Shown: one piece after another, positions 5,222 to 49,680 of the stretch
Layout of the letters: the number at the start of each line of letters is the position of its first letter
How positions within the stretch are numbered: position 1 is the first letter of the stretch
Virus record (IMG/VR): IMGVR_UViG_3300042561_000440
Location: 1 to 64,000 of that record
Reading direction: 5' to 3' (one strand)
Origin: a virus
Length of the DNA: 64,000 bases
The notes under the pieces: model-generated
What the model was told of the DNA's origin: nothing
What the model saw: only the letters and a program-made list of their open reading frames with translations
The model's database searches: none
Made by a program: the position numbers and the translations under genes

Positions 5222-5563
5222 ATGAAGCGGTTTTTGATCGCAGCTACGGCTTTCGGGATGTGTTTGAACTGGACGGTGGAAGCCCATGCAAAGCCCCGCC
5301 GCCAGTACCAGCAAGGCCAGCCGGTCCAGAACGTAGTGCGAGCCATGACCAACACCGCTCAAGGGGTGGCCGAGGCCTGTGCCCGCATGGGTCGGCTTCA
5401 GCACATGGGCGGCAACGGCGGCATGATGGAAGGCATCGGGATGGCCAGCACCCCGGAAGCAGCGGTCAGGAACTGCTGCTACTACGGGCAGATTGCCATT
5501 CAGGATCAGGGTGTAGCTCAGGGGCCGAACGGGATGTGGTACGCCTGTATCCGAGGTAGGTGA
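5222..5563 (+). CDS. Small secreted protein, Gly/Met-rich
   Basis: It is 113 residues, with ATG 5222 following AGGAGAG. There is a signal peptide (MKRFLIAATAFGMCLNWTVEAHA). The mature region is Gln/Gly/Met-rich with a Cys pair (NCCYYG) and the end QGVAQGPNGMWYACIRG, which looks like a small disulfide-containing repeat. The function is unknown. The stop overlaps the portal start (TGATG). Confidence 0.6.
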   Translation: MKRFLIAATAFGMCLNWTVEAHAKPRRQYQQGQPVQNVVRAMTNTAQGVAEACARMGRLQHMGGNGGMMEGIGMASTPEAAVRNCCYYGQIAIQDQGVAQGPNGMWYACIRGR

Positions 5564-7680
5564 TGGACGAAAACCTGTATCCCGAGCTTCCCTCAGAGGG
5601 CTCCGATGGTGGCCCGTTTGAGGCCCCGCCGCAGGACATTATCCCGCAAAAGAGGATGGAGGATGCCCTTAGGGCTATCTCTACCTCTTGGCTGTCGAAG
5701 CTCAAGCAGGCCCAGAAGCACAAGAAGCCGTTCTCCGATGACTCCAAAGAGTGCATGAACTTCTTTGACGGTCACGGGGACTGGTTCTGGAAGTCTGACG
5801 GCAAGAGCGACAAGAGCTATTCCAAGCTGGCACCGCCCAGCTTCAGGATGTGCATCAACAAGGCTTTTGAGGCTGTAAAGCTCTTTGGGTCAGTCATTTA
5901 CCACCGCAACCCGGTAAGGACTGTCACCCCAAGGACGTTCCCGGCGATCCCGCCACAGGCCATGGGCATCGACCCCAGCCAGCCGCCACAGATCGATCCG
6001 ATGACCGGGCAGCCCATGCCCGATCCCATGCTCCAGCAGTACATGCAGGCCTCAAGTCAGATAGACATGATGGAGGAGCAGAGGCGAACGGTAGCCCAGC
6101 TTGTAGAGACCTACCTGAATTACACGCCCGTGGAGTTGAACCTCAAGGAACACTCCAGAAAGGCTGTTGACGAGGCCATTATCAAGGGCATGGGGGTGTG
6201 GTGGACCGAATTGGTCGAACTCCCAGCCACAGAAGACGGCCAGACCTTCGGGATCATCGGCTCGTTCTATGACTCCTGTGACAATCTCTTGATGGACCCG
6301 GACGCAGACGAGCAGGAGGACATCCTGTGGTGTGCCCGGCGGTGCGTTCACCCGATTGACGAAGTGGCGGCCCAGTATGGCCTGAGCAAAGAGGACCTAA
6401 AGGGTCATCTAGAGAGCTTCGTGGCCCGATCCCAAGAAGAAGACCGGGACTACAAGACCAAGAAGCAGAACGGCAAAACCAACGACCTGTGCGTTTACTG
6501 GAAGATTTGGTCTAAGACCGGATTCGGCCACACGCTCAAGGGATTCCCCAAAGAGTTTGCCGGGATGTTCGATGCCCTTGGTCAGAACTGCTATGTGGTT
6601 GTGGCAGAAGGCGTAGATTTCCCTTTGAATTGCCCCAAGGAAATAGCCCTTGAGCAGCCAGACGAGACGGGCCTTCCAAACAGCCTTTTCACCAAGAGCC
6701 GCTGGCCCATTCCCTACTACGCGGACATCAATGGCTGGCCTTTCACTCCGCTTCAGTTCCACAGAAAGCCGGGGTACATCTGGCCCATCTCCCATCTGAA
6801 GCCGGGTCTGAGTGAGCTTAAGTTCCTGAACTGGGCCATGTCCTTCTTGGCGGGCCGCATCATGGTGTCCTGCAAGACCATGGTGGGCGTGGCCAAGGCT
6901 GCCGGGGATGACATTAAAGACCAGATTCTCAAGCACGAAGAGTCTGGGTTTTCCCTTGTGGAACTCTCTGAAACGCTCGGACGGTCAGTCAACGACATTG
7001 TTTCAGTGTTTCAGATGCCCAACGTCTCGCAGGACGTATGGACCATTTTGCAAGCCGTCTCTGAGATGTTCGACAAAAGGGTCGGACTTACAGAGTTGGT
7101 CTATGGAATGACTCGCAACCAGTTTAGGTCAGCCGCAGAGGCACAGGTCAAGTCTGAGCAGATTTCAGTAAGGCCGGATGACATGGCCAATGTACTGGAA
7201 GACGCTATGTCCACCTTGTCTAGGAAAGAGGCCTTGGCTGCCCGTTGGCTCCTCCAGCCCCAAGACGTTGCCCCTATCCTTGGACCGCTTGGGGCTCAGG
7301 TGTGGAGCGGGATCATCCAGCAGATCGACGTTCACGGTCTTGCCCGGGAGTTTGACTACAGGATCGAGGCCGGTTCTGCCCGCAAGCCGAACAAGGCGGG
7401 CAGAGTCGAGCAGATGAACTTGGCCATGCAGAATCTTGGGCCACTTCTCCAAGGCCTCCTCCCCATGGGCCAAGTGGGCCCCATGAATGCCCTCCTGTCG
7501 GATTGGTGCAAGTCGCTCGACCTTGACCCCAAGCCGTACATGATCCCCGAGCCGCCCCCGCCGCCGCCTCCCGGCCCGCCACCCGGACCTCCAGCCGGTG
7601 AGAGCGGGGCTTCGCCCGAAGAGAGCGGCGGCGGGGCTCCCCCTCCTGAGCCACAGCAAATGCCACCGGAGTTTCAGTAA
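5563..7680 (+). CDS. Portal protein
   Basis: The 705-residue protein directly follows the terminase block and has the size of P22/N4-type portals. Its helical body carries Trp/Tyr-rich segments and typical portal-like stretches (WAMSFLAGRIMVSCKTMVGV, FDKRVGLTELVYGMTRNQFRSAAEAQ). The C-terminus is a disordered poly-Pro/Gly tail from about residue 660. The portal forms the dodecameric DNA entry/exit ring at one capsid vertex. A GTG three bases earlier (5560) is an alternative start. The stop overlaps the next ATG (TAATG). Confidence 0.8.
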   Translation: MDENLYPELPSEGSDGGPFEAPPQDIIPQKRMEDALRAISTSWLSKLKQAQKHKKPFSDDSKECMNFFDGHGDWFWKSDGKSDKSYSKLAPPSFRMCINKAFEAVKLFGSVIYHRNPVRTVTPRTFPAIPPQAMGIDPSQPPQIDPMTGQPMPDPMLQQYMQASSQIDMMEEQRRTVAQLVETYLNYTPVELNLKEHSRKAVDEAIIKGMGVWWTELVELPATEDGQTFGIIGSFYDSCDNLLMDPDADEQEDILWCARRCVHPIDEVAAQYGLSKEDLKGHLESFVARSQEEDRDYKTKKQNGKTNDLCVYWKIWSKTGFGHTLKGFPKEFAGMFDALGQNCYVVVAEGVDFPLNCPKEIALEQPDETGLPNSLFTKSRWPIPYYADINGWPFTPLQFHRKPGYIWPISHLKPGLSELKFLNWAMSFLAGRIMVSCKTMVGVAKAAGDDIKDQILKHEESGFSLVELSETLGRSVNDIVSVFQMPNVSQDVWTILQAVSEMFDKRVGLTELVYGMTRNQFRSAAEAQVKSEQISVRPDDMANVLEDAMSTLSRKEALAARWLLQPQDVAPILGPLGAQVWSGIIQQIDVHGLAREFDYRIEAGSARKPNKAGRVEQMNLAMQNLGPLLQGLLPMGQVGPMNALLSDWCKSLDLDPKPYMIPEPPPPPPPGPPPGPPAGESGASPEESGGGAPPPEPQQMPPEFQ

Positions 7681-8373: not shown

Positions 8374-9642
8374 ATGTCTCTTCCAGCCATCCCCTGCCAC
8401 TCGCCCTCGACTTTCTCCAACTGCGCCTCCGATGAGCGGGGCTACTGGAAAATCCGGGTACGGCAAGACACCGCAGAAAACTGGGCCAAGAACGACCCTG
8501 TTCTTGCCTCTGGTGAGTTTGGCTATGTGATTGGCTCTGCCAATCCGGGCCAGCTTCTGAAGATTGGCGACGGCACCCTGCGGTGGAGCCAGCTTCCTTG
8601 GCTCATGGCCACGGGTAACTCCGGGCCCCCGGGTCCAGTCGGCCCTCCCGGCGGGAACATGGCCCTGACCATTCAGGCCAACGAGCCAGCCGTTGCCCCT
8701 CTGGGTGACCTGTGGCTCCAGCCTGTTTCAGCCAGTTCAGCCAACCTGTTCATCTCCAACGGGTTTGACTGGATTTCGGCAGGCTCTGCGGGCGGTGCAG
8801 CGGGCACCATCGACACCACGGCATTCAGCTATGGCAACCCACCGTACACGGGCGGTGCCACATACATTCCGCCCAACTCCATTGCCGCCAATCCCAGCCC
8901 GGCGTACCCGCTTCAGGAGTACATCAACAGGCTGGAAGCTGCCCTGCGGAGCGGCCAGATCGCCAACTCAGGAAGCAGCACTGCCCTGTGGAGGCTGACG
9001 GTTGGCTCAAGCGTCACCATCGGCGGCCTTCTCAGCGTGGCTGGTGGCATCCGATACGGTGGAACCCTTGGGCCGATCACCAGAGCGGACGAGGAGCCCG
9101 AGTACACAGGCGGCTTTGAGCTTCCCCCTCCGACCCAAGACGGCTACCTCCGGGCCGATGCCGACGATAACAACTGGTACTTCCACGATCCGGTCATTGT
9201 CTCGGACACCCAGCCGCCGGAACCCCCGGTAGTTGGAACTCTCTGGGTCTATCCCGATGGTACGGCCCCTTCCGAGAACTTCAGCTTTGTCAACCCTCCG
9301 GTCTACGCCGACGCCCCCATAGTCGAGCAACCCAACGGGCTCTCCATTGGCCTGTCTCCAGACGGTCAGGAAATCCACCAGCCCTACATGGTTGGCGGTG
9401 TGAAAGTCCTCGTTGGCGGGAAGGCATACCTCCTGCCGCTTCTGGAAGCCCCGGCATTTGCCCCCGGGTCAGAGCCCACTCCCCTGTTCACCTACGACGA
9501 TGACCCGATCACCCAGCAACTGAACGGCACCATCATCGGCATGAACGCTGATGGCACAGAGATCACCCAGCCCTACATGGTGGGTGGCATTGCCGTCATC
9601 GTCCAAGGCAAGCGTTATTTGTTGCCGGTTATTGAAGAATAA
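8374..9642 (+). CDS. Tail fibre/adhesin with Mtd-like N-terminal domain and collagen-like segment
   Basis: It is 422 residues. Residues ~25-75 (RVRQDTAENWAKNDPVLASGEFGYV...LKIGDGTLRWSQLPW) match the small N-terminal domain found on major-tropism-determinant-like phage fibres. A short collagen-like GPPGPVGPPGG stretch follows. The C-terminus has two imperfect repeats of ~60 residues, each containing DG.EI.QPYMVGG and ending in YLLP. It is probably a trimeric receptor-binding fibre and the first of an array of related fibre genes. Confidence 0.75.
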   Translation: MSLPAIPCHSPSTFSNCASDERGYWKIRVRQDTAENWAKNDPVLASGEFGYVIGSANPGQLLKIGDGTLRWSQLPWLMATGNSGPPGPVGPPGGNMALTIQANEPAVAPLGDLWLQPVSASSANLFISNGFDWISAGSAGGAAGTIDTTAFSYGNPPYTGGATYIPPNSIAANPSPAYPLQEYINRLEAALRSGQIANSGSSTALWRLTVGSSVTIGGLLSVAGGIRYGGTLGPITRADEEPEYTGGFELPPPTQDGYLRADADDNNWYFHDPVIVSDTQPPEPPVVGTLWVYPDGTAPSENFSFVNPPVYADAPIVEQPNGLSIGLSPDGQEIHQPYMVGGVKVLVGGKAYLLPLLEAPAFAPGSEPTPLFTYDDDPITQQLNGTIIGMNADGTEITQPYMVGGIAVIVQGKRYLLPVIEE

Positions 9643-9657
9643 GGTAACGCTCAGTCC

Positions 9658-10266
9658 ATGGTCATCGACATCAAAAAACTGCGACTGCAACAGAGGAACG
9701 CTCGTCCCGAGAACAGGGAGCGAAGGCGACTGTACTCACTGGCTAATAAAGAAAAGCACGCTGCGTACTCAAAGAAATGGCGGGAAGCCAACCCTGAACT
9801 GCGGAGAGCCTCCAAGCGCAGGTGGGAAAAGGCCAACCCAGAAAAACACGCCGAGTCCACCCGCCGCCAACACCGCGAATACATGAAGAAACGCAAGGCA
9901 CAAGACCTAGACTTTCGGATTTGCGTCCAGTTGCGGGATAGGACAAGTCAAGCCATCAAGAACGAATCCAAAGCTGGCTCTGCCGTCCGAGATTTGGGCA
10001 TGAGCAGTGCCGACTTCAAGCTACACATTGCGTCCCAGTTCAGCCCCGGAATGGAATGGGAAACGTGGGGCAGTTCCTTTGAGCTTGACCACATTTACCC
10101 CCTCGCTGGTGCCGACCTGAACGACCGTTGCCAATTCAAGGCCGTAGCCAACTGGCGTAACTACCAGCCCCTGACCCCCGAAGACAACAGCACGAAGGGC
10201 GACTCCATCACTGACGCTGCCCGTGAGCGGTTTGAGGTTCTCGCCAACTTTTTGGAGGTGATGTAA
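9658..10266 (+). CDS. HNH homing endonuclease
   Basis: It is 202 residues. The N-terminal ~80 residues are basic helical repeats of the KWREANPE/RRWEKANPEKH type seen in free-standing HNH endonucleases. The HNH core is FELDHIYPLAGADLNDRCQFKAVANWRNYQPLTPEDN. It lies between two tail-fibre genes and its stop overlaps the next ATG (TAATG). It is likely a mobile gene that moves by cutting fibre-region DNA. Confidence 0.85.
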   Translation: MVIDIKKLRLQQRNARPENRERRRLYSLANKEKHAAYSKKWREANPELRRASKRRWEKANPEKHAESTRRQHREYMKKRKAQDLDFRICVQLRDRTSQAIKNESKAGSAVRDLGMSSADFKLHIASQFSPGMEWETWGSSFELDHIYPLAGADLNDRCQFKAVANWRNYQPLTPEDNSTKGDSITDAARERFEVLANFLEVM

Positions 10267-12350
10267 TGCCCGCCCCAGCCCGTCCCGCCCCCATCAAGGT
10301 CATTGCTGACTCGACCCGCTTCGCAAACGGGATCGTGGGTGTCTACACGGACGCTGAAGTCGATGCTCTGCTTGCAAATCTGCCAGCAGGAGTTGGCGAA
10401 CCCGCCATCACTGTCCACGCTGGGTCGCCCCCTGTGCCGCTCTCCGGTGACCCAACCCCGCAAGAGCTAGAAGACTCTTTTGCGGCCCTGTCCAATGGAT
10501 TGCATTACTACCCAGACGGCGGGGCTCTTATTGCTGTCTTGCGTGGAGAATATCAGACAACCATTACGATCACTGGTGCCGTCAAGTCGGTTGCCCAGAT
10601 CGTCAAGTCTTCGGCGGGCCTGCCCACTCCCGACAACCCGTCAATGGTTGTCACGCAGATGGCTGACGGGAAGTGGTTTAGGGTCAAGGGCGACAGGCGG
10701 GATCAGCCGTTTGGCGACCCGGAGATAGTTGACATCTTCAAGTTGGTCAGTGGCGGTGACCTGACGGCTCTGAATGCCTACTACACGGGGCTGGAGGTCG
10801 AGGCCCTACTGGCTCCGATCAAGAATGACATCGCAGCCTTGGCATCCAACCAAGGCCAACAGCCACAGCCGGTAGACCTTGACCTTATCAACAGCCAGTT
10901 GCAGAGCCTCGCCACCATCACCCAAGACGTGATGGACAAGGTGGACGCCAAGGCCGACAAGACCACGGTGGCAACTCTTAGCACCACCCTGATGAACTCC
11001 ATCATGGAGGTGAAGGATGACGTTTACACCAAGTCCGAAGTCGATGACAAGCTGGAAGCCGACAAGGACTTCTCCATTGCCAACGACAACGTGCTTCTGG
11101 GTCAGATCACCTCCCTCCAAGAGATCGTGTCCAATCTGGGCACTGACATCGGAACTGGCCAGATCGACGTTCTGGATGCCATTCGGGACGTTGAGATTGA
11201 ACCCTCAATGGTGTCGCTCACAGGGGATGCAAACTCCCCGATTGCGTGGAAGGGTGGCCTGTCCCTGACTCCGGTCAAAGAAGGTGACCACTGGCGGCTG
11301 AATTGGAATGACGGCAAGGCCATCCACACCCTTGTTCATGGCGACGAGTTCACTTCAGCCAATATCGTCGCCGCACTGGCTAGCCAAGACGTTTCGGTGG
11401 CGAACCTCCAGACCGGGGGGCTTGAACTCAACGAACTGTTTATGGGTGCTGCCGGTGACCGGCTCATCACTCAGGTGGCTGGTGGCTCCGAGAACACGGT
11501 TGCCTACCTGTCTGACCTATCTGGCTATGCCCCGATCTCCACGACCACGCTCATCACAACCCAGATTCAGGCACTGTTCGACAGCATCTACACCCGGGCA
11601 GAGAGCGATGATCGGTATGCGGCCAAGTCGGACAACAGCCAGAACCTTTTTGCCAAGACCATTGTGGCCCAAGCGGTTGGCTTTGGTGACTCAGCCCTAA
11701 CCCCAGCCGCCCTGACCTATACCGATACCGGAGAAGGCTTTGGCCCACGGCTGGTGTTCGCGGTTGGCATGGTCAACGACTATGTGGCCCTGCGGAGTGA
11801 CTTTGAGCCAATCAAGTCCCGCATAGACGCCCTTGAGAGCAAGGCCGAACCGGCTTCGGTTGATGCCTACACGAAGGCACAGGTTGATGCCAAGCTGGCT
11901 GCCATTAACCCGACCAGTGCCGCCAACATCAATGACCCTGCCTTGGCTGCTTTCAAGAAGTCTGTGCTTGATGAAGTGAAGTTGATGCTGGTGGGCGGCA
12001 CGAAAATGCCACCGGCAGACATTGATTGGACACCGATCATCCGAATGGAGGGCGCGAAGGAAACAGCCTCAACGCAGATTGAAGCCCGAATGCTTGGCGG
12101 GTTCATCGAACTCAAGGGGACTTTGACGTTCAATGCTGGCAGCGGCGATTGGGTGCCGCTGCGACTGCCGCCACAGTTCCCGATGGCCGAAATTGAAGCG
12201 AAATACCCGCTTGCCATGCGGCTCGTTGGGTCTGCCGTTACCTATGGCTACTGCACCGTCAGCAACAAAAACCGCGACATCTATGTAAGTCCCGGCGCAC
12301 GATCAAGCGAGGCGACATTTTCTGGCATTCGATGGAAGGCGGCGTACTGA
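10266..12350 (+). CDS. Tail fibre with coiled-coil repeats
   Basis: The 694-residue protein contains several phage-fibre repeats of the YT(K/R)(A/S)(Q/E)(V/S)D.(K/R)(L/Y) type ([44 protein letters not shown]), typical of trimeric fibre stalks. The last ~130 residues (from about WTPIIRMEG) form a compact beta-rich tip. The ATG overlaps the upstream HNH gene's stop. Confidence 0.75.
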
Positions 12351-12352
12351 CA

Positions 12353-13315
12353 ATGCAAAACCGAAAAGCCTTTACCCTCGTTGAGTTGCTGGTGGTCATT
12401 GCCATCATCGGCACCCTCGTTGGCTTTCTCCTCCCGGCCATTCAGGCTGCGAGGGAGTCGGCCCGCAGGACCACCTGCACCAACAACCTCAAGCAGTTGT
12501 CCTTGGCCTGCATCAGCCATGAATCGGCCCAAAAGACATTCCCAAGAGGCACCAAGTGCTATGACGGCAGCTATGCCAATCTGGCCAAGAAGAGCCCGGT
12601 GGTAGACGGGGATTTGCGCTGGCATCACGATCATGCCTTTTTGAGTTACGCCCTGCCCTACATTGAGTCAGAGGCCACCATCAAGAGGTTCGATCAGGAC
12701 AAGAGCTTCACCAACGAGGCCAACAAAGAGGCCCGCAGGGGAATGCTTGCCTTGTCATTCATGGCCTGCCCTTCTGACATCGGACTCCAGAAGAACGAAT
12801 GGGACTTGGATCGCTGGGCTAGGGTTCGCATGAACTACGTCTGCAACTACGGCAACACCAACTACGGTCAGGCCACCAAGTCCGGCGTTGCCCACGGCGG
12901 TGCCCCTTTCACTATGGTGGTGGGAGTCAAGCCCGCACAGGTCACAGACGGCCTCTCCAAGACGATGTTGCTGTCCGAAACAACTGTCACAGGCCCAGAG
13001 GACTCATGGCAGGGGCCACCTTCCGATGTGTCTTTTGCAAACGGCGGGCAAACATACACCGCATGGCTCATCCCTAATAGCACTGTCTGCGAAGAGACTG
13101 TTAGGTATCCGACTGCCCTGAACGGCAGGCCAGCCGGATGTACTACGCTGGAGGATTGGGAGTTGCAGGTGCTGTCAGCCCGCTCCAAGCACCCGGCTGG
13201 TGTGGTGATAGCGAACTGTGATGGGGCCACCCGGCTCGTTGCCAATCAAGTTGACCTTGCCGTCTGGCGGTCTGCCAGCACTGCCAAGGGCGGCGAAACA
13301 CTGGTACTGGAATAA
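12353..13315 (+). CDS. DUF1559 pilin-like protein (SBP_bac_10 family)
   Basis: It is 320 residues, with start ATG 12353 three bases after the fibre stop (an earlier in-frame ATG at 12332 lies inside the fibre gene). It has a type IV prepilin N-terminus ([35 protein letters not shown]). It then carries the family signature [17 protein letters not shown]...TFPRG and a C-terminal H-x8-DG-type motif ([17 protein letters not shown]). DUF1559 proteins occur in very large numbers in Planctomycetes and are thought to be surface pseudopilins. A complete copy inside the fibre block suggests capture from the host and possible use in adsorption. The cleavage-site residue is Ala rather than the usual Gly. 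Confidence 0.9.
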
Positions 13316-13319
13316 GACC

Positions 13320-13529
13320 ATGGCATCACTCGCATATTGGAGCGGCACGAAGTGGGTCACCATCTCCACTGGTAGTGGTGGTGGTGGCAGTGGACTGCCC
13401 GGACCTCCCGGCCCCAAGGGGGACAAAGGTGACAAGGGAGAGGACGGCAAGTCCATCTCTGTCAGCAAGCAACCTTCCCAGCCTGCTACCGCAGAGATGG
13501 GCGACGTTTGGATTCAGGAACAACCCTAA
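13320..13529 (+). CDS. Short collagen-like protein
   Basis: It is 69 residues. The N-terminus LAYWSGTKWVTIS is followed by poly-Gly, a GLPGPPGPKGDKGDKGEDG collagen-like run, and an end module DGKSISVSKQPSQPATAEMGDVWIQEQ. The end module recurs at the C-terminus of the next gene, so the two share a modular origin. It is probably a minor fibre, or a fibre truncated by rearrangement. Confidence 0.6.
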   Translation: MASLAYWSGTKWVTISTGSGGGGSGLPGPPGPKGDKGDKGEDGKSISVSKQPSQPATAEMGDVWIQEQP

Positions 13530-13547: not shown

Positions 13548-14018
13548 ATGGCCAATAACGCATACATCTACGACGGTACAAGGTGGGTCAGCATCGTTGG
13601 TCCCGAAGGCCCGGAAGGTCCCGAAGGTCCCAAGGGCGACCCGGGCGAGGACGGCAAGGACGGCAGTGGCGTAACCATCAAGGGAACGGCCACGGTCTAT
13701 CCCCCATCTGCGACCCCCACTGCCGGTGATATGTACCTTGTCGATGACCCGGTTCCGGCTGGCTTTCCCCCCGGCACTCAGCCCGGCGACGGCCTCGTCT
13801 GGACCGGCACGGCTTGGGAAAACGTCGGTGCCATCCGTGGTCCTAAGGGCGAGCGCGGCGACAGGGGTGACAAGGGTGCTGACGGTGCCGATGGTGCCGA
13901 TGGTGCCCCCGGCGTGGACGGTCAGGCCGGTGAGGATGGCAAATCCATCAAGGTCAGCGTCCAGAACTCCCAGCCTGCTACGGCAGCGGCGGGCGATGTC
14001 TGGATAGATCCCGCCTAA
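13548..14018 (+). CDS. Collagen-like fibre protein
   Basis: It is 156 residues. The YIYDGTRWVSIVGP head is shared with the fibre at 14624 (KIYDGSDWHSIKGP). Then come collagen-like triplets, a non-collagen insert (GTATVYPPSATPTAGDMYLV...GDGLVWTGTAWENVG) also found in the fibre at 16246, a second collagen run, and the DGKSI...GDVWI tail module. The modules are shuffled among neighbouring genes. It is probably a virion surface fibre. Confidence 0.65.
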   Translation: MANNAYIYDGTRWVSIVGPEGPEGPEGPKGDPGEDGKDGSGVTIKGTATVYPPSATPTAGDMYLVDDPVPAGFPPGTQPGDGLVWTGTAWENVGAIRGPKGERGDRGDKGADGADGADGAPGVDGQAGEDGKSIKVSVQNSQPATAAAGDVWIDPA

Positions 14019-14099: not shown

Positions 14100-14624
14100 A
14101 TGAGAGATTGGTCGAAGTCCAGCCCGAAAGTCCACGTTACCGCCGAGCAACTCCGTGAGATGCACCATGATCGCCGGATGTCGTTCAAGGAAATGGGTGC
14201 CCAGCTTGGGTGCGGCAGGTCGCAAGTCCAGAGGCTAATGAAGAAGCACGGCATCGAAGCACTCCCCGTAAACCGTCCAGAAAGAAGTGCCAAGATCGCC
14301 GCCAAGCGGAAAGGCCAGTTCACCCCCATGCAGGCCAAGTGGTCTGGTCGCTCCTGCCTCAAGGTCACCGTGGACGGCAAGCGAGTTCAAGCCCACCGAG
14401 CAATGGCAGAAATGATCCTTGGCCGAAAGCTCACTGCGGACGAGACAGTCCACCACTGCGACAACGACCAAAAGAACAACAGCCCAGACAACCTGTGGGT
14501 GTTTCCAACCAAGGCAGATCACACCCGATACCACCGCACCGGAGAAGTCGCCATCGGCACCATGCCGCTGGGCGAGTTTGTCATGCGGGGCCCACAACCA
14601 GTCAGCAATAACAAGGTGGCATAG
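14100..14624 (+). CDS. HNH homing endonuclease
   Basis: It is 174 residues, with ATG after GGAGGAAGAGCA. The N-terminal helix-turn-helix-like region (VTAEQLREMHHDRRMSFKEMGAQLGCGRSQVQRLMKKHGI) is followed by an HNH core (AHRAMAEMILGRKLTADETVHHCDNDQKNNSPDNLWVF). It is the second free-standing endonuclease in the fibre block and overlaps the next fibre's GTG start (TAGTG). Confidence 0.85.
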   Translation: MRDWSKSSPKVHVTAEQLREMHHDRRMSFKEMGAQLGCGRSQVQRLMKKHGIEALPVNRPERSAKIAAKRKGQFTPMQAKWSGRSCLKVTVDGKRVQAHRAMAEMILGRKLTADETVHHCDNDQKNNSPDNLWVFPTKADHTRYHRTGEVAIGTMPLGEFVMRGPQPVSNNKVA

Positions 14625-16063
14625 TGGCTAAAGACGTAAAAATCTATGACGGCTCCGATTGGCACTCCATCAAAGGCCCCAAGGGTGATGACGGAGCCAA
14701 GGGCGATGCTGGTGTGCCCGGACCAACGGCTGTTTCTGCGGACGCTGGCAATGTCCTAGAGGTAGGTGCCGATAGCCTCCTCAAGCTGGACCCCGCCAAG
14801 CTCGACTCCCGATTCGTCAACGTCACGGGCGACACGATGACCGGGCAGTTGAGGATTGAGGGGCCGTCCAGCCCCAACGGGCTTATGCACCTTGTAGGCG
14901 AAACGGCGGCTTTTACTGCCGAAAGCTACTCCAACACGGCATCCAGCGGAGCGATCTACCGTGCAAGGCGGGCGAGGGGAACATCTGCCGCACCGCTGGC
15001 CGTCCAAGCTGGCGACCGGATTCTCGGCCTGAGCCAAGCGGGCGCAAGGCAGGATGGCACCTTCCGCAATGCGGGCCTGTTTGCACTCAATGTCACGGAC
15101 ACGCCGCTCCCGACTGACAATGCGCTAAAGACTCATTGGCAGTTGTCGGCTGGCAATGGGCTGGGTACGGGCGTGAGTGTCATAGCGGAGTTCGGAATCA
15201 AGGGCTCCTTTCTCAACACCGAAGCCCTTGGCGTGAACCTCCTTGACCCGACTCACAATTTGGAAGTGGGCGGCGATACGATGTTACGCGGCCCGCTGGA
15301 AGTGGTGGGGGACATTACCAGCACAGGAACTGCCCACAACTTCGCTGCCGATAGCATCCTCGTTTCCGCCGTCAGTGGTGCCGTCAAAAAGACGGGCGAC
15401 ACCATGACGGGGCCGCTCAAGATCGAGGCACCCGCCGCTCCGAACGGATGGTTTCAAGCGGTCGGTGATGCTGCGTCATTCACGGGCGAGAGCTATTCAA
15501 ACACAGCCACCAGCGGAGCTATTTATCGGTCGAGGCGGGCGAGGGGAACTGCGTCGGCACCGCTGGCCGTTCAAGCTGGGGATCGGATTTCCTCCATGAG
15601 CCAAATGGGCCAGCGTGGGGACGGAACATGGAGGAATTGCGGTGCGATTCTTCTTGATGTTTTGGACACGCCAGCCCCGACCGACAACACGATCAAGACG
15701 CGATGGATCATTCAAGCCGGAAACGGCTCTATCGTGACGCCGATTCTGGTTATGGAGGCCGGTTCGTCCTATTTCGCCTGTCCGCGCGTTGGCATTGGAT
15801 CGGCCGTTCCAACTTGCCAGCTTGACGTTCTCGGTGACACGGCACTGCGTGGCAATGTTGATGTCACTGGCAACATCACAAGCACCGGCACGGCTCACTC
15901 GTTCGCCGCTGGCTCCATCCCCGCCCCCGCCGTTATCGGCGGCACGGCCAGCACCCCGACCGCTGGCACTGTGGCGGCATGGGGTTCGATGCGGTGGGAT
16001 GAAAACTTCCTCTACATCCGCACCGGAACAGGCTGGAAAAAAGTAGCCCTCTCAGCCCTCTAG
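14624..16063 (+). CDS. Tail fibre with collagen-like stem and tandem duplicated beta domain
   Basis: It is 479 residues with a GTG start. The head is KIYDGSDWHSIKGP, followed by a short collagen-like run. Two copies of a ~100-residue module follow, each with GDTMTG.L(R/K)IE, ESYSNTA(S/T)SGAIYR(A/S)RRARGT and APLAVQAGDRI. An end module contains TPTAGTVAAWGSMRWDENFLYIRTGTGWKKV. It is probably a receptor-binding fibre built by internal duplication. Confidence 0.75.
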   Translation: MAKDVKIYDGSDWHSIKGPKGDDGAKGDAGVPGPTAVSADAGNVLEVGADSLLKLDPAKLDSRFVNVTGDTMTGQLRIEGPSSPNGLMHLVGETAAFTAESYSNTASSGAIYRARRARGTSAAPLAVQAGDRILGLSQAGARQDGTFRNAGLFALNVTDTPLPTDNALKTHWQLSAGNGLGTGVSVIAEFGIKGSFLNTEALGVNLLDPTHNLEVGGDTMLRGPLEVVGDITSTGTAHNFAADSILVSAVSGAVKKTGDTMTGPLKIEAPAAPNGWFQAVGDAASFTGESYSNTATSGAIYRSRRARGTASAPLAVQAGDRISSMSQMGQRGDGTWRNCGAILLDVLDTPAPTDNTIKTRWIIQAGNGSIVTPILVMEAGSSYFACPRVGIGSAVPTCQLDVLGDTALRGNVDVTGNITSTGTAHSFAAGSIPAPAVIGGTASTPTAGTVAAWGSMRWDENFLYIRTGTGWKKVALSAL

Positions 16064-16072
16064 GAGTTAACC

Positions 16073-16243
16073 ATGACCGACGAGATTGATCGAGAAGTTG
16101 CCGACACTGAAGCCATGCTTGCCGAACTGAAGAAACGTCAGGCCGAAGAGGCAAAAATAACTGCCGTTCAGGACGCAGCACTTGCGAAAGTTCGTGCTGA
16201 ATGTGCAGCGGCCCGTGCCGGACATTCAATTGACGAGGAGTGA
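16073..16243 (+). CDS. Small coiled-coil protein
   Basis: It is 56 residues, with ATG 16073 after TAGGAGTTAACC. It is almost entirely an acidic/basic amphipathic helix (TDEIDREVADTEAMLAELKK...), likely a coiled coil. It is packed tightly between two fibre genes, and its ribosome site and tight spacing support translation. A fibre chaperone or trimerisation helper is possible but unproven. Confidence 0.6.
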   Translation: MTDEIDREVADTEAMLAELKKRQAEEAKITAVQDAALAKVRAECAAARAGHSIDEE

Positions 16244-16245
16244 CC

Positions 16246-18855
16246 ATGGTCTTTTCCCCCAGCACCTGCGAGCCCAAGCCCCAGACCTCTCCATTCAGGA
16301 TGGTGAGCCGTCCTGCTATTGAGTGGTCTACGATCAACCCTGTGCTTGGGCTGGGGGAATGTGCCCATGAAACTGACACTGGCCGATTCAAGGTTGGTGA
16401 CGGCAAGACTCCCTATAAGAACCTCGCCTACCAGATGAGCATTGGGGTTCCGGGCGAGCCGGGTCCAGTGGGCTCAGACGGACCTCCGGGCCCCCCGGGC
16501 CCTCGCGGCGAACGTGGTGAACAGGGTCCTGTCGGAGCGGCTGGTCCTGCCACGGTTCTCCAGATTGGGACGGTTGCATCTGGGCCAATTCCCAGCGTCA
16601 CTCTGGTGGGCAATGCTCCCTTGCAGACTCTGAACTGGGTCATCCCCAAGGGTGAGAAGGGTGATGCCGGGGCCACCAACTCCTTGAAGATTGGCACGGT
16701 GGTGGCGGGCATCAACCCTGCCGCAACGATCACCGGAAATGCCCCCGATCAGACCCTCAATCTGGTGCTGCCAAGAGGCGAGAAGGGTGATGCCGGTGCG
16801 CAGGGGACCCCGGGTGTCAAGGGTGACCGTGGTGACGTAGGGCCCAAGGGGGACACCGGCGCAGGTGCTGTCATCAAGGGAACCGCCAGTGCCTATCCGC
16901 CCGTAGCGAACCCTGTAGTCAACGACCTCTACATCTTGGGCAGTGCCGCCTCCCTGACTGGTGCCCCTGCCTCCAGCGTTGGTCCTGCATCTGTTGGTGA
17001 TGGCGTGGTGTGGACTGGGACTAGCTGGGTCAACGTCGGCCCGCTGCGAGGCTCCCAAGGTATTCAGGGTAACGTCGGCCCTTCTGGTCCGGCTGGCCCC
17101 GCCGGTCCTGCCACCACCCTTGCCATCGGGGCTGTGTCAGCGGGCACTATTGCTCAGGCATCGCTGACGGGCACGGCTCCCAACCAGACCTTGAACTTGG
17201 TCCTGCCCAAAGGTGATGCCGGTGTGGCCGGGCCCAAGGGGGATGCTGGTGCGGTTGGCCCGGCTGGCCCGCCCAACTCGCTCACTGTCGGAACGGTCAC
17301 CCAAGGCGTGGCTGGAAGTGCCCCCACTGTGACCATTACCGGAGTGGCCCCGGCCCAGACCATCTCGTTCCGGTTCCCGGTTCCCGCCGACCCGGCTGTC
17401 AACAAGCTCTCGATTGGCACGGTGACTCAAGGTGGTGTCCCCAGTGCCACGATCACCGGGACGCCCCCGAATCAGATACTCAATCTGGTGCTGCCTAATC
17501 CGCAGGTCACGCAGTCCACTTCGTTCTCGGTCAACCCTGTCAACGCCTCTGGGTTTGTAGGCGAGTCTGTTTCATTTACGGCCACCGCCCAATCCACAGA
17601 AGGCCCTCTGGTCTACAAGTGGCAGGTGTCAAACGACAACGGGGCGACCTTCGCCGACATTACCGGGGCTGGCACAAACACCTACACATTCACCCCTGTT
17701 CTTGCAGATTCTGGGAAGCGGTACAGGTGTGTTGCTACCACTCCCACGCTGGGGCCCACTTACAGCCTGATTGCAACACTGACTGTCACGGTCAGGCCCA
17801 TTCCAGATGGCTCGTCGTGGCGAGCCGGGGTCGCAAATGGCTCAGGATACATCGAGTTCCTCAATGGCCTGTTCATTGCTGGCAACGGACGTTGGTCTAC
17901 GGACGGTGCCGAATGGACGAACGCAATGCCGACAGGAATCGATCTGTTTCATCGCGGAGCTTTCGGGAACGGAACGTGGGTTGCTGGCAAGAGAGTGCCA
18001 GCGGAGTTCGTGACCGGCCTCAGCACAAGGCCCGAATACTTTGTTGCCTGCACTAGTGCTGACGGCAAAAACTGGACTGCAAGAGAGTCCTTCAGTTTGT
18101 TTGGCGGAAATCTTTTGGGATCACAAAACGCAATCTTTGGATACGGATTTGGAAAGTTTGTCTGCTTCTACAGCACAGAAAGAAACTACTACGTCCAAGG
18201 GTCCACCGTTGTCCGAAAGCTAAATGTAATTGTTGCTATGTGGAGTTCTGACGGGATCACTTGGAACAACTGCCCTGCCATTACCGGAATGGTGACAGGA
18301 AACTCGCCGCTAAATACCGCTGCAACGGGCTTTACGGCAACGGCACAGGCCAATGCCTTTACGAGAATGACCTCCGTGGCCACAGGCACCGGCAACAGCC
18401 CGCTCATGGTAGCCACCGGATTGATAGTGTCAGGCGCAACGAACCAATACTTAGCCAGTGCCGATGGAATCACTTGGGTTCTGAAAACTTTCCCAGCGTT
18501 TGTTGCCGTGCAGGACGTTGCTTTTGGTGCCACTAACTTTGTGGCTGTCGGAACGGGCGGTGTCTGCTTCCGCACAGCTACGCCAGCAACTCCGCTTACC
18601 ACCGCAAGCATTGCTTTCTCGGTTGCCAATATGCCAGCAACTGCAAGCTGGAGTGGCATCACCTATGGAAACGGCAAGTTCGTGGCAGTGGCAAACGGAT
18701 CGGCCACGGCAGCTAACTCCGTTGACGGGGCTACATGGGCACAGAAGACCCTGCCGAGCAGTTCTTTGTGGGATGGCGTGGCGTTCGGCAACAACAGGTT
18801 TATTGCGTCAGCCGCCGCTGGCACCACCACTGCCGCCACCGCCATCAGTGATTAG
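16246..18855 (+). CDS. Large multidomain tail fibre (Mtd-like N-terminus, collagen, Ig-like, propeller-like)
   Basis: It is 869 residues. ATG 16246 follows GAGGAG and a GTG at 16240 is an alternative. The order is: an Mtd-like N-terminal domain (IEWSTINPVLGLGECAHETDTGRFKVGDGKTPYKNLAY), several collagen-like runs alternating with beta inserts (L.IGTV..G..P..T(I/L)TG.AP.QTLN.VLP), an Ig-like domain (ESVSFTATAQ...YKWQVSNDNG...YRCVAT), and a C-terminal ~320 residues with repeated (S/A)(A/S)DG..W and (Y/F)GN(G/N).(F/W)(V/I)A units. The last part resembles a beta-propeller. It is likely the main adhesin. Confidence 0.75.
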   Translation: MVFSPSTCEPKPQTSPFRMVSRPAIEWSTINPVLGLGECAHETDTGRFKVGDGKTPYKNLAYQMSIGVPGEPGPVGSDGPPGPPGPRGERGEQGPVGAAGPATVLQIGTVASGPIPSVTLVGNAPLQTLNWVIPKGEKGDAGATNSLKIGTVVAGINPAATITGNAPDQTLNLVLPRGEKGDAGAQGTPGVKGDRGDVGPKGDTGAGAVIKGTASAYPPVANPVVNDLYILGSAASLTGAPASSVGPASVGDGVVWTGTSWVNVGPLRGSQGIQGNVGPSGPAGPAGPATTLAIGAVSAGTIAQASLTGTAPNQTLNLVLPKGDAGVAGPKGDAGAVGPAGPPNSLTVGTVTQGVAGSAPTVTITGVAPAQTISFRFPVPADPAVNKLSIGTVTQGGVPSATITGTPPNQILNLVLPNPQVTQSTSFSVNPVNASGFVGESVSFTATAQSTEGPLVYKWQVSNDNGATFADITGAGTNTYTFTPVLADSGKRYRCVATTPTLGPTYSLIATLTVTVRPIPDGSSWRAGVANGSGYIEFLNGLFIAGNGRWSTDGAEWTNAMPTGIDLFHRGAFGNGTWVAGKRVPAEFVTGLSTRPEYFVACTSADGKNWTARESFSLFGGNLLGSQNAIFGYGFGKFVCFYSTERNYYVQGSTVVRKLNVIVAMWSSDGITWNNCPAITGMVTGNSPLNTAATGFTATAQANAFTRMTSVATGTGNSPLMVATGLIVSGATNQYLASADGITWVLKTFPAFVAVQDVAFGATNFVAVGTGGVCFRTATPATPLTTASIAFSVANMPATASWSGITYGNGKFVAVANGSATAANSVDGATWAQKTLPSSSLWDGVAFGNNRFIASAAAGTTTAATAISD

Positions 18856-45428: not shown

Positions 45429-46784
45429 CTAGCAGAGAGGCATGGAATCAATAAGCTCACGCTCAATGATCCCAGCAAAGGCTTCCTCTGGCACACACTC
45501 AGTAGCCTGAACGACAAGGCCATACCCCATCATTTCATCGGGGCTCAGGTCACTACAGATAACCTTGTCGTGATTGTCCGGCCAATACACCAGCTTGTCT
45601 CTGGCCTTGAGGTCGTTCAGCATCACGGCCCGGTTGGCATCGAAGGCAGTCACTCCCTTCTTGAGGACCCGGAGGGTGTGGTAGCAACGCTCCAGTGGGG
45701 TGCCCCGCTTGAGGCTTCTTTGCGCACTGTCCCCACCCCATCGGTAGGTGCTTCTGAACGGGCTGTCATCCGCACTGCCAGCCTTCAGCATGTAATTGCC
45801 ATGGGGTGGAATGATTACTTGAACGCAGCGAATCTGCTCACCGTAAGAATCCATATACCCAGCCTTGGCCGCACTGACAGTCCAGTACATGACCAACTGG
45901 GGGAGATAATAGAACACACCATCCAAGTGGCGATCCCTAGCCAAGCAGTGTGAACCAATGGGCGAGAACCGTCGGTCAACAAACCGTGAGGTCAGCCGCA
46001 CCCCGGCAAGGTCATCTTGCTGCTTGAGCATGGGGTACAGTGCAATCTTCAGGTGCTTGTGTCGCTCCTGAATCTTCAGTGCCTCTCGATGGACACGGGC
46101 AGCGGCCATCCTCACCATTGCCGAGTCCCACAACTTCTCACCGTCTGGCCCAAGAGGAGAAAGCATGGATTCATACCAAGCTTCCTTGCCAACAGAGCCG
46201 GGAAGAAAGCCAAGCTGAATATCCAGCGGGGACCGGAAGTAATTGAGCAGGCCTCTCTGGATTTCGCCCTCCTCACGGTGGGAGAAGTCAAGCATCTTCC
46301 CGTCTTTGTCACGGAGGAATACGCTAGTCGTGTTGGTTGTGCAGACAACACCGCAGCTTCCCCTGCTGTTGACCTTGAATCCGCCGGCAGTCTTCCACAT
46401 TTCACTGCCATCGGCATTGTAAAAGGTTGCCGGAACCCACCGCTTGAACGCCACCCCAGCAGGAAGCGAGATAGGCAGCCACCTCATGACAGTCTTTCTG
46501 TAGTCGCTGATCCTGATCTCAAGCTGATACCTTGTGTAGCACTTGCCGTCCTTCTTGCTGCCTGAGATTTCAGCAATCCGAGTGCCTTTGACGTAATAGT
46601 TAAAGCTGTAGATGCTGCCATTGCCCGTGCCGTGCGGGGTGGCACCAACTTTCAGGCCCGGAATGAGCTTCTCGCTGCCCCCGTCAAACAGCTTGGCATA
46701 CTCAACAGGGTCAGACTTGTAGAGCTTCGCCGCCCGGAGCAGCAAGCTGGTGAACGTGTAGATTTCCTTGGCTGGTTTAGCCAT
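45429..46784 (-). CDS. Large conserved-looking protein encoded with the VWA/MoxR genes
   Basis: It is 451 residues, with ATG 46784 after AGGAGGAG. It is soluble and mixed alpha/beta with no recognised motif. Segments such as SIYSFNYYVKGTRIAEISGSKKDGKCYTRYQLEIRISDY are strongly beta. It is encoded directly downstream of the VWA/metallopeptidase gene (eight-base overlap), so it is probably a partner or substrate of that system. Confidence 0.55.
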   Translation of the reverse strand: MAKPAKEIYTFTSLLLRAAKLYKSDPVEYAKLFDGGSEKLIPGLKVGATPHGTGNGSIYSFNYYVKGTRIAEISGSKKDGKCYTRYQLEIRISDYRKTVMRWLPISLPAGVAFKRWVPATFYNADGSEMWKTAGGFKVNSRGSCGVVCTTNTTSVFLRDKDGKMLDFSHREEGEIQRGLLNYFRSPLDIQLGFLPGSVGKEAWYESMLSPLGPDGEKLWDSAMVRMAAARVHREALKIQERHKHLKIALYPMLKQQDDLAGVRLTSRFVDRRFSPIGSHCLARDRHLDGVFYYLPQLVMYWTVSAAKAGYMDSYGEQIRCVQVIIPPHGNYMLKAGSADDSPFRSTYRWGGDSAQRSLKRGTPLERCYHTLRVLKKGVTAFDANRAVMLNDLKARDKLVYWPDNHDKVICSDLSPDEMMGYGLVVQATECVPEEAFAGIIERELIDSMPLC

Positions 46785-48243
46785 CAAGCTCCTCCTTGTG
46801 TGGTGAATCGGGGATACGAACCTTGGTGGCCCACGGTGGAACAAACCCATCCTGAGTGGCAGCCACAATCAATTGACCCTTGAGCTTCTGGTCTGGCCAA
46901 GGGGTGCCGGTGTCCGTCACCAAGACGGTGACATCCGGCTCGTACTTATCCTCTGAGTAGGCAAGGGGGACTCTCATGTCTGTCCCGCCGCCGCCAACCA
47001 ACTCAAACTTGTCGTGAACTGCGGACACCATTTTGTCTTGGTGAACCTGAGCATCGCAGGTAATCACCGGGACGTTGCCAACGGCCTTGAGGCCCTGCTT
47101 GACCACGGTCAAGGCCTTGGCAAGACAGCCAGCGGTCATCGAACCAGAGGTGTCGATGATGACCACTGCCTTGGGGTTGTACTTCTTCACCCCCTTGAGG
47201 CGAACCTCCACGCTATCCTGCCTACGGTTAGGCCGATGATAGGTGTAGTCCGGGGCACCACGGTGATTGGCAATAGCCTTGGCCACCGTAGCCCGGAGCT
47301 TGTCCCAAGGGTTGGGTTGGGGGTGGAGCTTGGACTTGATGACCCGCTTCAGCCCAGCCGGAATAGTTCCCCGGCCATTAACCCAGTCCCGGTCAGCCTC
47401 AAGCTGCTCGATCTTGTTCTCCAGTGCCTCAAGCAGGTTGTCTTCCATGAAGGCATCCCACTTGGGGTCCGGCTCCTCCTCGTACTCACGGGGCAGACCG
47501 TCAGCGGCAGAGCCGTCACCAATCAGCTTGAAGTCACCGCCTTTTCCGTTGCCCTCATCTTCACCACCAGATGGGCCATCGCCTTCCTGATCTCCCGGCT
47601 CTCCCTTGCCGCCATCCTCTTCGCCGCCTTCAGAATCTTGGGGTTCGCCGCGACCATCGCCACCCTCCTCTTGCTCTTCGGATTCTTCGGTGCCATCGCC
47701 GCCATCCTCATCAGACTCTTCGCCCTCCTCCTCGTCCTCAGACTCACCACGGGGCGGCTCAGGAGGAATCGGCGGCTTGGGCTCAGGCTCACTGATGATC
47801 GCATACAACTGCTCGACCGTCATGTTCCTTTCGATCTTGGGCCACTGCTTCTTGGCATCGGGGAAGGTGACTCCATCCTTAGGGCAAAGGTGGGCAATGG
47901 CTTCCATCATCTCCCACACCACGATGTCCATGGCAATGTTCAGATTCCGCCGATCCTTGGGGGACGGGCGGTCACCGACAATCGACATAGACCGATGGCA
48001 GTGCCGAAGGATTAAGTGCCACGCCTCATGGCAAACAACGTAGCCGCCCTCCTCAAGCGTGATGGTCTCGCAAAAGGCAGGGTCGTAATAGAGGCGACCA
48101 TACTTGTCCACTGCCATGGTCCCGATGCCCGGTCGCTCAACAGGAGTCAAGCTATAGACATACGGTGCAATGTAGGGGAAGTGGTCGTAGACTGTCATTC
48201 GATATTGGGTAATCAGATCGACAAGGTTTGCTGCTGTGGTCAC
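46777..48243 (-). CDS. VWA-domain protein with N-terminal metallopeptidase-like domain (DUF2201-type)
   Basis: It is 488 residues with a GTG start. The N-terminal domain carries HEAWHLILRHCH (HExxH at 72-76), typical of the metallopeptidase-like half of this family. A long acidic Glu/Asp/Gly linker (~residues 150-260) follows. The C-terminal VWA domain has a metal-ion-dependent adhesion site (VVIIDTSGSMT near residue 365, GGGGTDMRVP, VLVTDTG). These proteins act with MoxR-type AAA+ ATPases in chaperone-like remodelling or metal insertion. The MoxR partner lies upstream at 48442. Confidence 0.88.
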   Translation of the reverse strand: MTTAANLVDLITQYRMTVYDHFPYIAPYVYSLTPVERPGIGTMAVDKYGRLYYDPAFCETITLEEGGYVVCHEAWHLILRHCHRSMSIVGDRPSPKDRRNLNIAMDIVVWEMMEAIAHLCPKDGVTFPDAKKQWPKIERNMTVEQLYAIISEPEPKPPIPPEPPRGESEDEEEGEESDEDGGDGTEESEEQEEGGDGRGEPQDSEGGEEDGGKGEPGDQEGDGPSGGEDEGNGKGGDFKLIGDGSAADGLPREYEEEPDPKWDAFMEDNLLEALENKIEQLEADRDWVNGRGTIPAGLKRVIKSKLHPQPNPWDKLRATVAKAIANHRGAPDYTYHRPNRRQDSVEVRLKGVKKYNPKAVVIIDTSGSMTAGCLAKALTVVKQGLKAVGNVPVITCDAQVHQDKMVSAVHDKFELVGGGGTDMRVPLAYSEDKYEPDVTVLVTDTGTPWPDQKLKGQLIVAATQDGFVPPWATKVRIPDSPHKEELDG

Positions 48244-48437
48244 TGCGAATTCTCCAAGTGTTTGATGGCCTGCTTGCCAGCCCTAAGCATCTGATCCTCG
48301 ACGGCTTTCCGGTTAAGCGGATTGCCAACATCAACAGGAGTGAAGAGGGCCAAGGCAAATCCCTTTAGCCGCAGCTTCCGCAAGAACTCACTGTCTTCCG
48401 GGGTCATTCCGGCACGGTACTTGTGGCGGTAAAGCAT
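48240..48437 (-). CDS. Small basic protein between MoxR and VWA genes
   Basis: It is 65 residues from ATG 48437. It is basic and helical (YRHKYRAGMTPEDSEFLRKLRLKGFALALF...VEDQMLRAGKQAIKHLE). Its stop overlaps the VWA GTG. It is probably an accessory of the MoxR-VWA unit. Confidence 0.5.
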   Translation of the reverse strand: MLYRHKYRAGMTPEDSEFLRKLRLKGFALALFTPVDVGNPLNRKAVEDQMLRAGKQAIKHLENSQ

Positions 48438-48441
48438 TGGT

Positions 48442-49602: not shown

Positions 49603-49647
49603 TTGGATTTCTCCAGAGTGAGGGGGGGTGGTTGCCGGTGGCCTCCA

Positions 49648-49680
49648 GACCACAGGTCCCGGCCCAGCTTCGCTGGGCTC
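49648..49680 (-). repeat. Leader element U, copy 1
   Basis: This is the first of five copies of a block reading, on the minus strand, a short GC hairpin (GCCCAGC-GAA-GCTGGGC) followed by CCGGG(A/T)(C/T)CTGTGGT. It lies 46-78 nt upstream of the MoxR ATG and just past the stop of the preceding gene. Copies 2-5 are at 54046, 55848, 56474 and 56713. Confidence 0.65.

Follow-up and report, generated by a model that had tools for sequence, protein, structure and literature searches.

A planctomycete-type DUF1559 pilin-like gene beside a putative phage tail-fibre gene: a candidate envelope-targeted moron

Several phages encode envelope proteins next to genes for tail or receptor-binding proteins, and the outer-membrane protein Lom of phage lambda is one case, its gene adjoining the tail genes. 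The T5 Llp gene is described as 'adjacent and downstream to pb5' (PMC9586334), the exclusion factors of other small siphoviruses are placed in one account at a locus beside the J-like hub (PMC11990801), and for T1-like phages a Cor locus is described that has two membrane-associated genes upstream (PMC13164509). Exclusion of rivals through disabled type IV pili is also known in phages (PMC11656802, PMC11436027); Tip and Aqs1 of Pseudomonas phages are presented as gene products that disable type IV pili, and Tip as one that excludes other phages (PMC11656802). DUF1559 proteins are treated as a planctomycete family in the accounts consulted (PMC10632474, PMC2754498, PMC5352709), and in Planctopirus limnophila they are reported as the biggest paralogue group, with 68 paralogues, two of them essential, and with a function given as unknown (PMC10632474). 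In the literature searched, no paper joins DUF1559 with phage, and searches for H-X9-DG and for planctomycete-phage phrases returned nothing relevant.

We analysed a window of 64,000 nucleotides, taken from a linear IMG/VR record that is 64,362 bases long. The open reading frame at 12353-13315 (+) encodes a full-length DUF1559 protein of 320 residues, which matches PF07596 (Pfam) with E 8.3e-40 and 137.9 bits against a cut-off of 23.3, the alignment being near full length (residues 31-302 on model positions 1-267 of 268). This confirms the original prediction of a DUF1559 pilin-like gene, as well as its full prepilin leader, since PF07963 (N_methyl, E 5e-7, Pfam) and the prepilin domain TIGR02532 (NCBIfam) both lie above cut-off. 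The CTNNLKQ signature that it named is found in the protein, and so is the C-terminal 'H-x8-DG' motif, although the spacing is nine residues and not eight. The H-x9-DG motif (H280, D290 and G291; 13190-13225, +) lies within a C-terminal beta hairpin, in blocks with pLDDT of 82-85, and its three residues are invariant in the alignments examined. The NCBIfam model for H-X9-DG, TIGR04294, gave no match at E 0.05 in the DUF1559 protein of the window or of locus L004, and matched three other viral DUF1559s in the same scan. The full-length domain, the prepilin leader, the CxNNL motif and the residues of the H-x9-DG motif are all shared with DUF1559 proteins of Planctomycetia, from which the window gene differs in being phage-borne and in lying in a fibre region.

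A second in-frame ATG lies at 12332, upstream of the start at 12353, where the residues 'LTM' are common to 3/3 phage DUF1559 versions. The predicted leader, MQNRKA (12353-12370, +), would be cut by prepilin peptidase between A6 and F7; the residue at -1 of this predicted cut is A, as in 16 of 69 host sequences, the other 53 having G. It is followed by a long N-terminal helix (residues 9-60; 12377-12532, +) comprising a membrane segment and an amphipathic helix, as in type IV pilins. Among PHROG families, phrog_3433 ('pilin', moron category) matches residues 4-55 (E 2.7e-5); it likewise represents phage proteins with a pilin N-terminus, but it is 127 positions long and has no match to DUF1559 beyond that region. 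The Cor family is absent from the PHROG matches of the protein, and no lipobox was seen by eye. The GC3 of the gene, 0.71, lies within the range of six window genes (0.63-0.78), so that codon composition is uninformative.

A first AlphaFold model of the protein was too poor to keep (pLDDT 49.7); with 43 sequences, AlphaFold2 reached a pLDDT of 63, with a confident helix at residues 9-60 (mean pLDDT 90-95 in blocks within residues 11-60), a fair C-terminal hairpin and a poor middle part. Among solved chains, a profile search found 18 sequences, every one of them named as a pilin or pseudopilin; the best was geopilin domain 1 (E 2e-10), with the match in the N-terminal region. All nine of the entries shown with Z of at least 2 in the structural comparison are type IV pilins, led by PilA4 of Thermus (Z 5.3 over 122 residues), with Z values that are low throughout. 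The best Foldseek match had an E of 0.2, which is not significant, and viral structures gave nothing usable.

The gene lies between fibre-region genes, as had been claimed. The upstream frame at 10266-12350 (+) ends with TGA at 12348-12350, 2 nt before the DUF1559 ATG, and the DUF1559 stop codon TAA (13313-13315) is followed after 4 nt by the ATG at 13320 of a small collagen-like gene (13320-13529, +; MASLAYWSGTKW...). The 10266-12350 protein has no match in Pfam or PHROGs; it is putatively a tail fibre, a role assigned from its place, and as a receptor-binding protein it is likewise putative. To the right lie a collagen-like fibre gene (13548-14018, +; Pfam Collagen E 2.6e-10), an HNH endonuclease gene (14100-14624, +; PF13392 E 4.1e-7, phrog_7545 E 3.4e-21), a tail-fibre-like gene (14624-16063, +; PHROG tail families, best E 2.6e-5) and a collagen-like tail protein gene (16240-18855, +; phrog_21962 E 6.2e-57, Collagen E 8.6e-11). 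Left of the putative fibre gene we found an HNH-like gene (9658-10266, +), recognised by eye and with no Pfam match, then a tail-fibre-like gene (8374-9642, +; phrog_19976 tail assembly E 5.5e-10, Mtd_N below cut-off) and a portal-like gene (5560-7680, +; phrog_156 E 1.2e-4, P22_portal E 4.7e-5 and under cut-off). The protein labelled terminase-like 3093 has a weak Terminase_6N match (E 0.0026, under cut-off), and its label rests also on gene order. Just upstream of this terminase-like region, 1786-2229 encodes a second exported-looking phage protein (MKKYVIFAIALLLGCLAIPVVEPVQAG...), whose PHROG Cor-family match (E 0.24) is not significant.

The same DUF1559 gene is encoded at four other IMG/VR loci, L002 to L005, so that five contigs carry three distinct versions, 95-100% identical to that of the window. 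L002 is 99.995% identical to the window in DNA over 20.96 kb, with a DUF1559 gene identical letter for letter; the protein of L003 is 96% identical to that of the window and those of L004 and L005, which are identical to each other across the whole locus compared, 95%. The frame is intact in all versions found, and phage genes flank it on both sides in all five contigs. The original prediction had allowed that the region might be a chimeric assembly from host DNA, which is inapplicable here because other contigs, too, have the gene amid phage genes. Contamination would draw on a huge host family, with 169 matches in one genome, yet the same gene stands at the same place between phage flanks in other IMG/VR records, and no host protein found exceeds 50% identity; we therefore rejected chimeric assembly or host contamination as an explanation and regard its probability as negligible.

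Relatives of the phage were found with the portal-like protein (30 loci), which was also the query for prophage homologues, and with a tail-region protein (8 loci). The C-terminus ...SGIRWKAAY of the 10266-12350 product is common to relatives and marks the left edge of a slot, which we defined as the interval after the fibre gene with this ending and before a gene starting M..xYYWxGxxW, like the small collagen-like gene of the window; genes in relatives have the same start motif and other lengths. The slot is occupied by DUF1559 in the window, L002, L004 and L005. At L003 DUF1559 is preceded within the slot by a protein of 218 residues that has a signal peptide and a C-terminal tail both hydrophobic and basic; the occupant at L017, L155, L156 and L157 is a single-TM protein of 58 residues. 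A scan with the 58-residue protein placed it in the slot at 11/11 loci having it (7 distinct local sequences; L156:2462-2638 is one occurrence, and L237-L247 also carry it). In 11/11 the stop codon of its gene and the start codon of the collagen-like gene that follows share one base (TAATG). At the other end, the start codon overlaps in the same way (TGATG) with the stop of the fibre gene ending in ...SGIRWKAAY in 8/11, and in 3/11 the end of another gene precedes it. The slot is empty in L023/L024, where the fibre end is different, and in L035; in L016, L021, L025 and L029 the stretch read has no such fibre end and the slot is undefined.

An N-terminal hydrophobic segment is present in only 3/79 window ORFs, so that three membrane-targeted occupant types would be unlikely by chance, an indicative and post hoc estimate since the slot pattern was found after looking. 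The slot thus seems to hold envelope-targeted proteins, as all three occupant types look to be so from their sequences. The secreted protein just before DUF1559 in L003 (L003:9339-9995, IMGVR_UViG_3300044615_000496) has a C-terminal tail VPEFGG...AARKKI and a weak Pfam lectin match (E 0.053). We dropped a PEP-CTERM label for it, as it is PEP-CTERM-like by eye but has no NCBIfam match at E 0.05. No relative of it was found in 297 Planctomycetia genomes (searched without a positive control) or in other viral contigs.

The 58-residue protein has a single TM segment and a charged helix. This raises the alternative of a slot for membrane proteins of the holin, spanin or depolarisation type, in which DUF1559 would be a lysis or envelope-disruption accessory; the proteins scanned included no recognised holin or spanin, which would fit such a role. 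We consider it highly improbable. DUF1559, with its 320 residues and large outer domain, is pilin-like, the slot is empty in some relatives, and the 58-residue protein has no PHROG lysis match and no confident family (LapA_dom E 0.0077, under cut-off). The sole lysis-category PHROG match of the window lies elsewhere, in the ORF at 40962-41525 (phrog_2252 'endolysin', residues 105-179, E 2.2e-12). The same region matches a pyrophosphohydrolase family as well, and has a better match to a family of unknown function.

Comparison of the versions indicates that the gene has moved between phages. Between the window and L004, the dS of DUF1559 is 0.158; the backbone, represented by the tail-region genes p19925 and p18864 and the portal gene, gives 0.93-1.89, and the C-terminal part of the fibre gene 1.27. 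In this pair, divergence is below that of the backbone also for two genes right of the slot, the collagen gene (0.71) and the HNH gene (0.36). Identity to L004 is 0.62-0.67 at 12200-12319, rises to 0.80-1.00 in blocks within the DUF1559 gene, falls to 0.63 at 13340-13399 and is then mixed (0.72-1.00). Edges of identity thus lie near the gene ends, the left edge being present in L004 only. In the portal tree the DUF1559 carriers are scattered: L003 and the window group with L016, L029 and L017, all without DUF1559, and L004 falls with L035, which has an empty slot. The dS contrast, the identity edges and this patchy distribution together indicate that DUF1559, perhaps with some sequence to its right, passed between phages, which the sequence comparison shows for the L004 pair only. 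Between the window and L003, the dS of DUF1559 (0.136) is similar to that of the backbone (0.08-0.22), so that no exchange is needed for this pair; the left flank is similar apart from the extra gene, and identity in the right flank falls to about 0.2-0.55.

An alternative is functionless passenger DNA, spread by neighbouring HNH endonucleases or by recombination in a hot fibre region, and both the nearby HNH gene, conserved in L004 too, and the homology edges near the DUF1559 gene ends in L004 are compatible with it. However, the dN/dS (omega) of DUF1559 is 0.16-0.27 in three pairs, with a synonymous excess (Fisher p 3e-9, 3e-12 and 2e-6; the three pairs are not independent), and the frame is intact in all versions found, which makes a functionless passenger quite improbable. 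From these substitution patterns, DUF1559 is under purifying selection in the phages. The synonymous excess, together with the near full-length domain and the recurrence in four other contigs, also indicates that the DUF1559 match is not due to chance.

The original prediction had proposed that the protein may serve in adsorption or imitate a surface fibre of the host. As a virion component, DUF1559 would fit its place within a tight run of fibre-region genes, and in L004 the unusual similarity takes in part of the fibre region on its right. Its export and membrane leader, unlike its neighbours, and the membrane event of prepilin processing count against this, as does its replacement by a 58-residue membrane protein in 11 loci. 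Moreover, the gene does not diversify with the fibre gene, the amino acid identity of DUF1559 being 95-96% and that of the compared parts of fibre 10266 59-73%. The slot occupants have in common membrane or export targeting, not fibre likeness, and DUF1559 stays constant beside a varying fibre, so that a role in the virion is not borne out and appears unlikely.

We searched for the origin of the gene among host genomes. DUF1559 matches at E <= 1e-40 were found in 48 of 397 Planctomycetia genomes, the best being 50% identical and the four best host matches 47-50% identical to the phage protein; 3/294 genomes of a phylum sample and 7/45 of a family sample had matches. The host genome at locus L006 is that of Singulisphaera sp. 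GP187 (class Planctomycetia, family Isosphaeraceae), which has 169 DUF1559 matches in total. The maximum-likelihood tree has 86 rows, with 69 host rows from 64 of 65 host loci (L120, without a usable ORF, was dropped) and viral rows from 14 of 20 loci outside the lineage. The three phage DUF1559s come together as a single clade (100/100). The group of 41 rows that contains this clade (3 phage, 38 host; 87/81) adjoins nine host rows at a fork of 87/80. This tree is unrooted, its supports are moderate, many host rows were picked as best matches of the phage protein, and its host rows come from Planctomycetia.

The 14 other viral rows are placed elsewhere, 13 of them together with one host row. 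A single shared viral DUF1559 lineage was rejected, since the AU test rejects all viral rows together (p-AU 0.001), the tested group having been named after the tree was seen. Within the Planctomycetia sampling, the tree and the AU test bear out the planctomycete origin that had been claimed, and they support capture of the gene by the phage from Planctomycetia-type bacteria, with a clustering that holds within that class. A non-planctomycete closest relative, which the original prediction had singled out as the contrary result, was not met with in a host sampling confined to planctomycetes: the closest relatives found are planctomycete.

Use of the gene as a host indicator agrees with evidence that is independent of DUF1559. 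Portal-like homologues were found in 5/397 class genomes and 2/45 family genomes, and the genome stretches read also have matches to further window proteins, with the gene order kept (terminase-like 3093, then portal-like), the 7680 protein also being matched in two stretches and tail-region proteins in 3/4 regions. Since portal homologues of the phage also occur in Planctomycetia genomes, placing its host among Planctomycetia bacteria is sound as a sequence-based assignment. DUF1559 thus helps to place the host of a viral lineage that has no match among named phages: tblastn against INPHARED (50,697 phage records) gave no match to the DUF1559 protein, and none for host DUF1559, other viral DUF1559 or the portal-like protein (all run without a positive control). 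We note that L115/L116 (Singulisphaera sp. GP187, G001:C5) and L117-L119 are prophage-like regions with terminase-like and portal-like homologues in the same order, and in most of them tail-region homologues too. Neither a DUF1559 match nor a prepilin motif was found in the prophage-like stretches read.

These homologues bear on another explanation, in which DUF1559 converts the surface of the infected or lysogenic cell for some other benefit, such as adhesion, aggregation or protection, as with lambda Lom. Lom is similarly a host-like envelope protein encoded beside tail genes, although it is an outer-membrane barrel of an unrelated family. The exported occupants of the slot would fit surface conversion, some kin may be temperate as portal homologues lie on large Planctomycetia contigs, and other viral contigs carry DUF1559 outside fibre blocks. 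On the other side, no integrase was found among the part of the window ORFs scanned, the direct coupling to the fibre gene suggests late lytic expression, and the 20-kb prophage-like stretches read (L115-L119) have no DUF1559. On balance we regard surface conversion as rather unlikely, though it ranks next after the reading that we favour.

We tentatively favour, at somewhat less than an even chance, the reading that DUF1559 is a moron targeted to the envelope, whose likeliest purpose is to block a receptor or to bring about superinfection exclusion. Receptor blocking is favoured because the slot partners share membrane or export targeting, because DUF1559 is constant beside a varying fibre and because precedents are known. 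A planctomycete type IV pilin-like gene would have been captured and kept as a moron in a fibre-linked slot, where it may be translated together with the fibre gene. Envelope targeting is predicted from the prepilin leader and the hydrophobic segment, and the leader points to membrane insertion rather than assembly with tail proteins. The N-terminal helix would insert the protein into the host inner membrane, the host prepilin peptidase would trim it, and it might then join or jam a pilus- or pseudopilus-like surface assembly of the host. The receptor of the adjacent fibre would thereby be hidden or disabled, so that progeny and rival phages would not adsorb to the infected cell or its debris.

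The proposed moron resembles T5 Llp and T1 Cor in being an envelope-targeted phage protein, here as predicted from the leader, and T5 Llp also in the position of its gene beside that of a receptor-binding protein, here a putative fibre gene. It differs in being pilin-like and not a lipoprotein, and no sequence relation was found. Llp and Cor are described as early-acting, but the gap of only 2 nt behind the fibre gene suggests that DUF1559 is expressed late. Tip and Aqs1 are precedents as phage genes that disable type IV pili (PMC11656802), but they are small PilB-targeting peptides and not pilin homologues. Further points against blocking are that, with 169 matches in one Singulisphaera genome, one extra copy need not block, and that other viral DUF1559s have no collagen-like neighbours (0/35 loci). 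A bolder extension, which we consider doubtful, is that phages of Planctomycetia carry interchangeable receptor-blocking cassettes, one of which is a captured host pseudopilin that masks or poisons the pilus-like assembly recognised by the fibre. If this were true, DUF1559 assemblies would be phage receptors, and an arms race with phages would partly explain the expansion of DUF1559 in Planctomycetes. A phage that keeps one DUF1559 under selection in an envelope-protein slot would also offer a small, testable system for the function of the family.

The original prediction had called DUF1559 rarely reported in phage. This stands for the literature searched and for named phages, but a profile scan of IMG/VR gave 241 stretches that encode DUF1559 relatives, some of which may share only the pilin N-terminus; the best 80 of the 241 were retained. 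Among 95 viral loci viewed, repeats included, 86 have a full-length DUF1559 ORF, 38 of them non-redundant. A collagen-like neighbour, recognised by a simple pattern that would miss fibres without collagen repeats, was found within three ORFs on each side in none of 35 other viral DUF1559 loci (35 of the 38 non-redundant). The fibre slot for DUF1559 therefore looks special to this phage lineage, as judged from gene order. Other viral DUF1559s fall in different parts of the tree and lie in different contexts, for example a replication module in L047, and some of the contigs that carry them may be host-derived or chimeric.

Several further observations were made in these contigs. L043 and L053 belong to one large viral contig (IMGVR_UViG_3300024324_000009, 171 kb) with two DUF1559 genes, and Pfam matches place PSCyt/PSD1 (DUF1549/1553) and DUF1501 proteins in the stretch of L051, which is 99.97% identical to L053; neighbours in L196 and L203 seem DUF1501-like by eye. 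A PEP-CTERM protein (PF07589 and TIGR02595 above cut-off) is encoded at L059:11372-12112 in a viral contig with DUF1559. In hosts, a small lipoprotein lies beside DUF1559 at 29/45 loci by tblastn and at 8/45 by a simple pattern, with no match in the window, and a small lipoprotein that follows DUF1559 at L164:6966-7373 resembles by eye the one beside many host genes. In the window itself, DUF2201 (VWA/metallopeptidase-like) and AAA ATPase genes lie close together at 46777-49653 (-), forming a MoxR-VWA-like pair in a phage.
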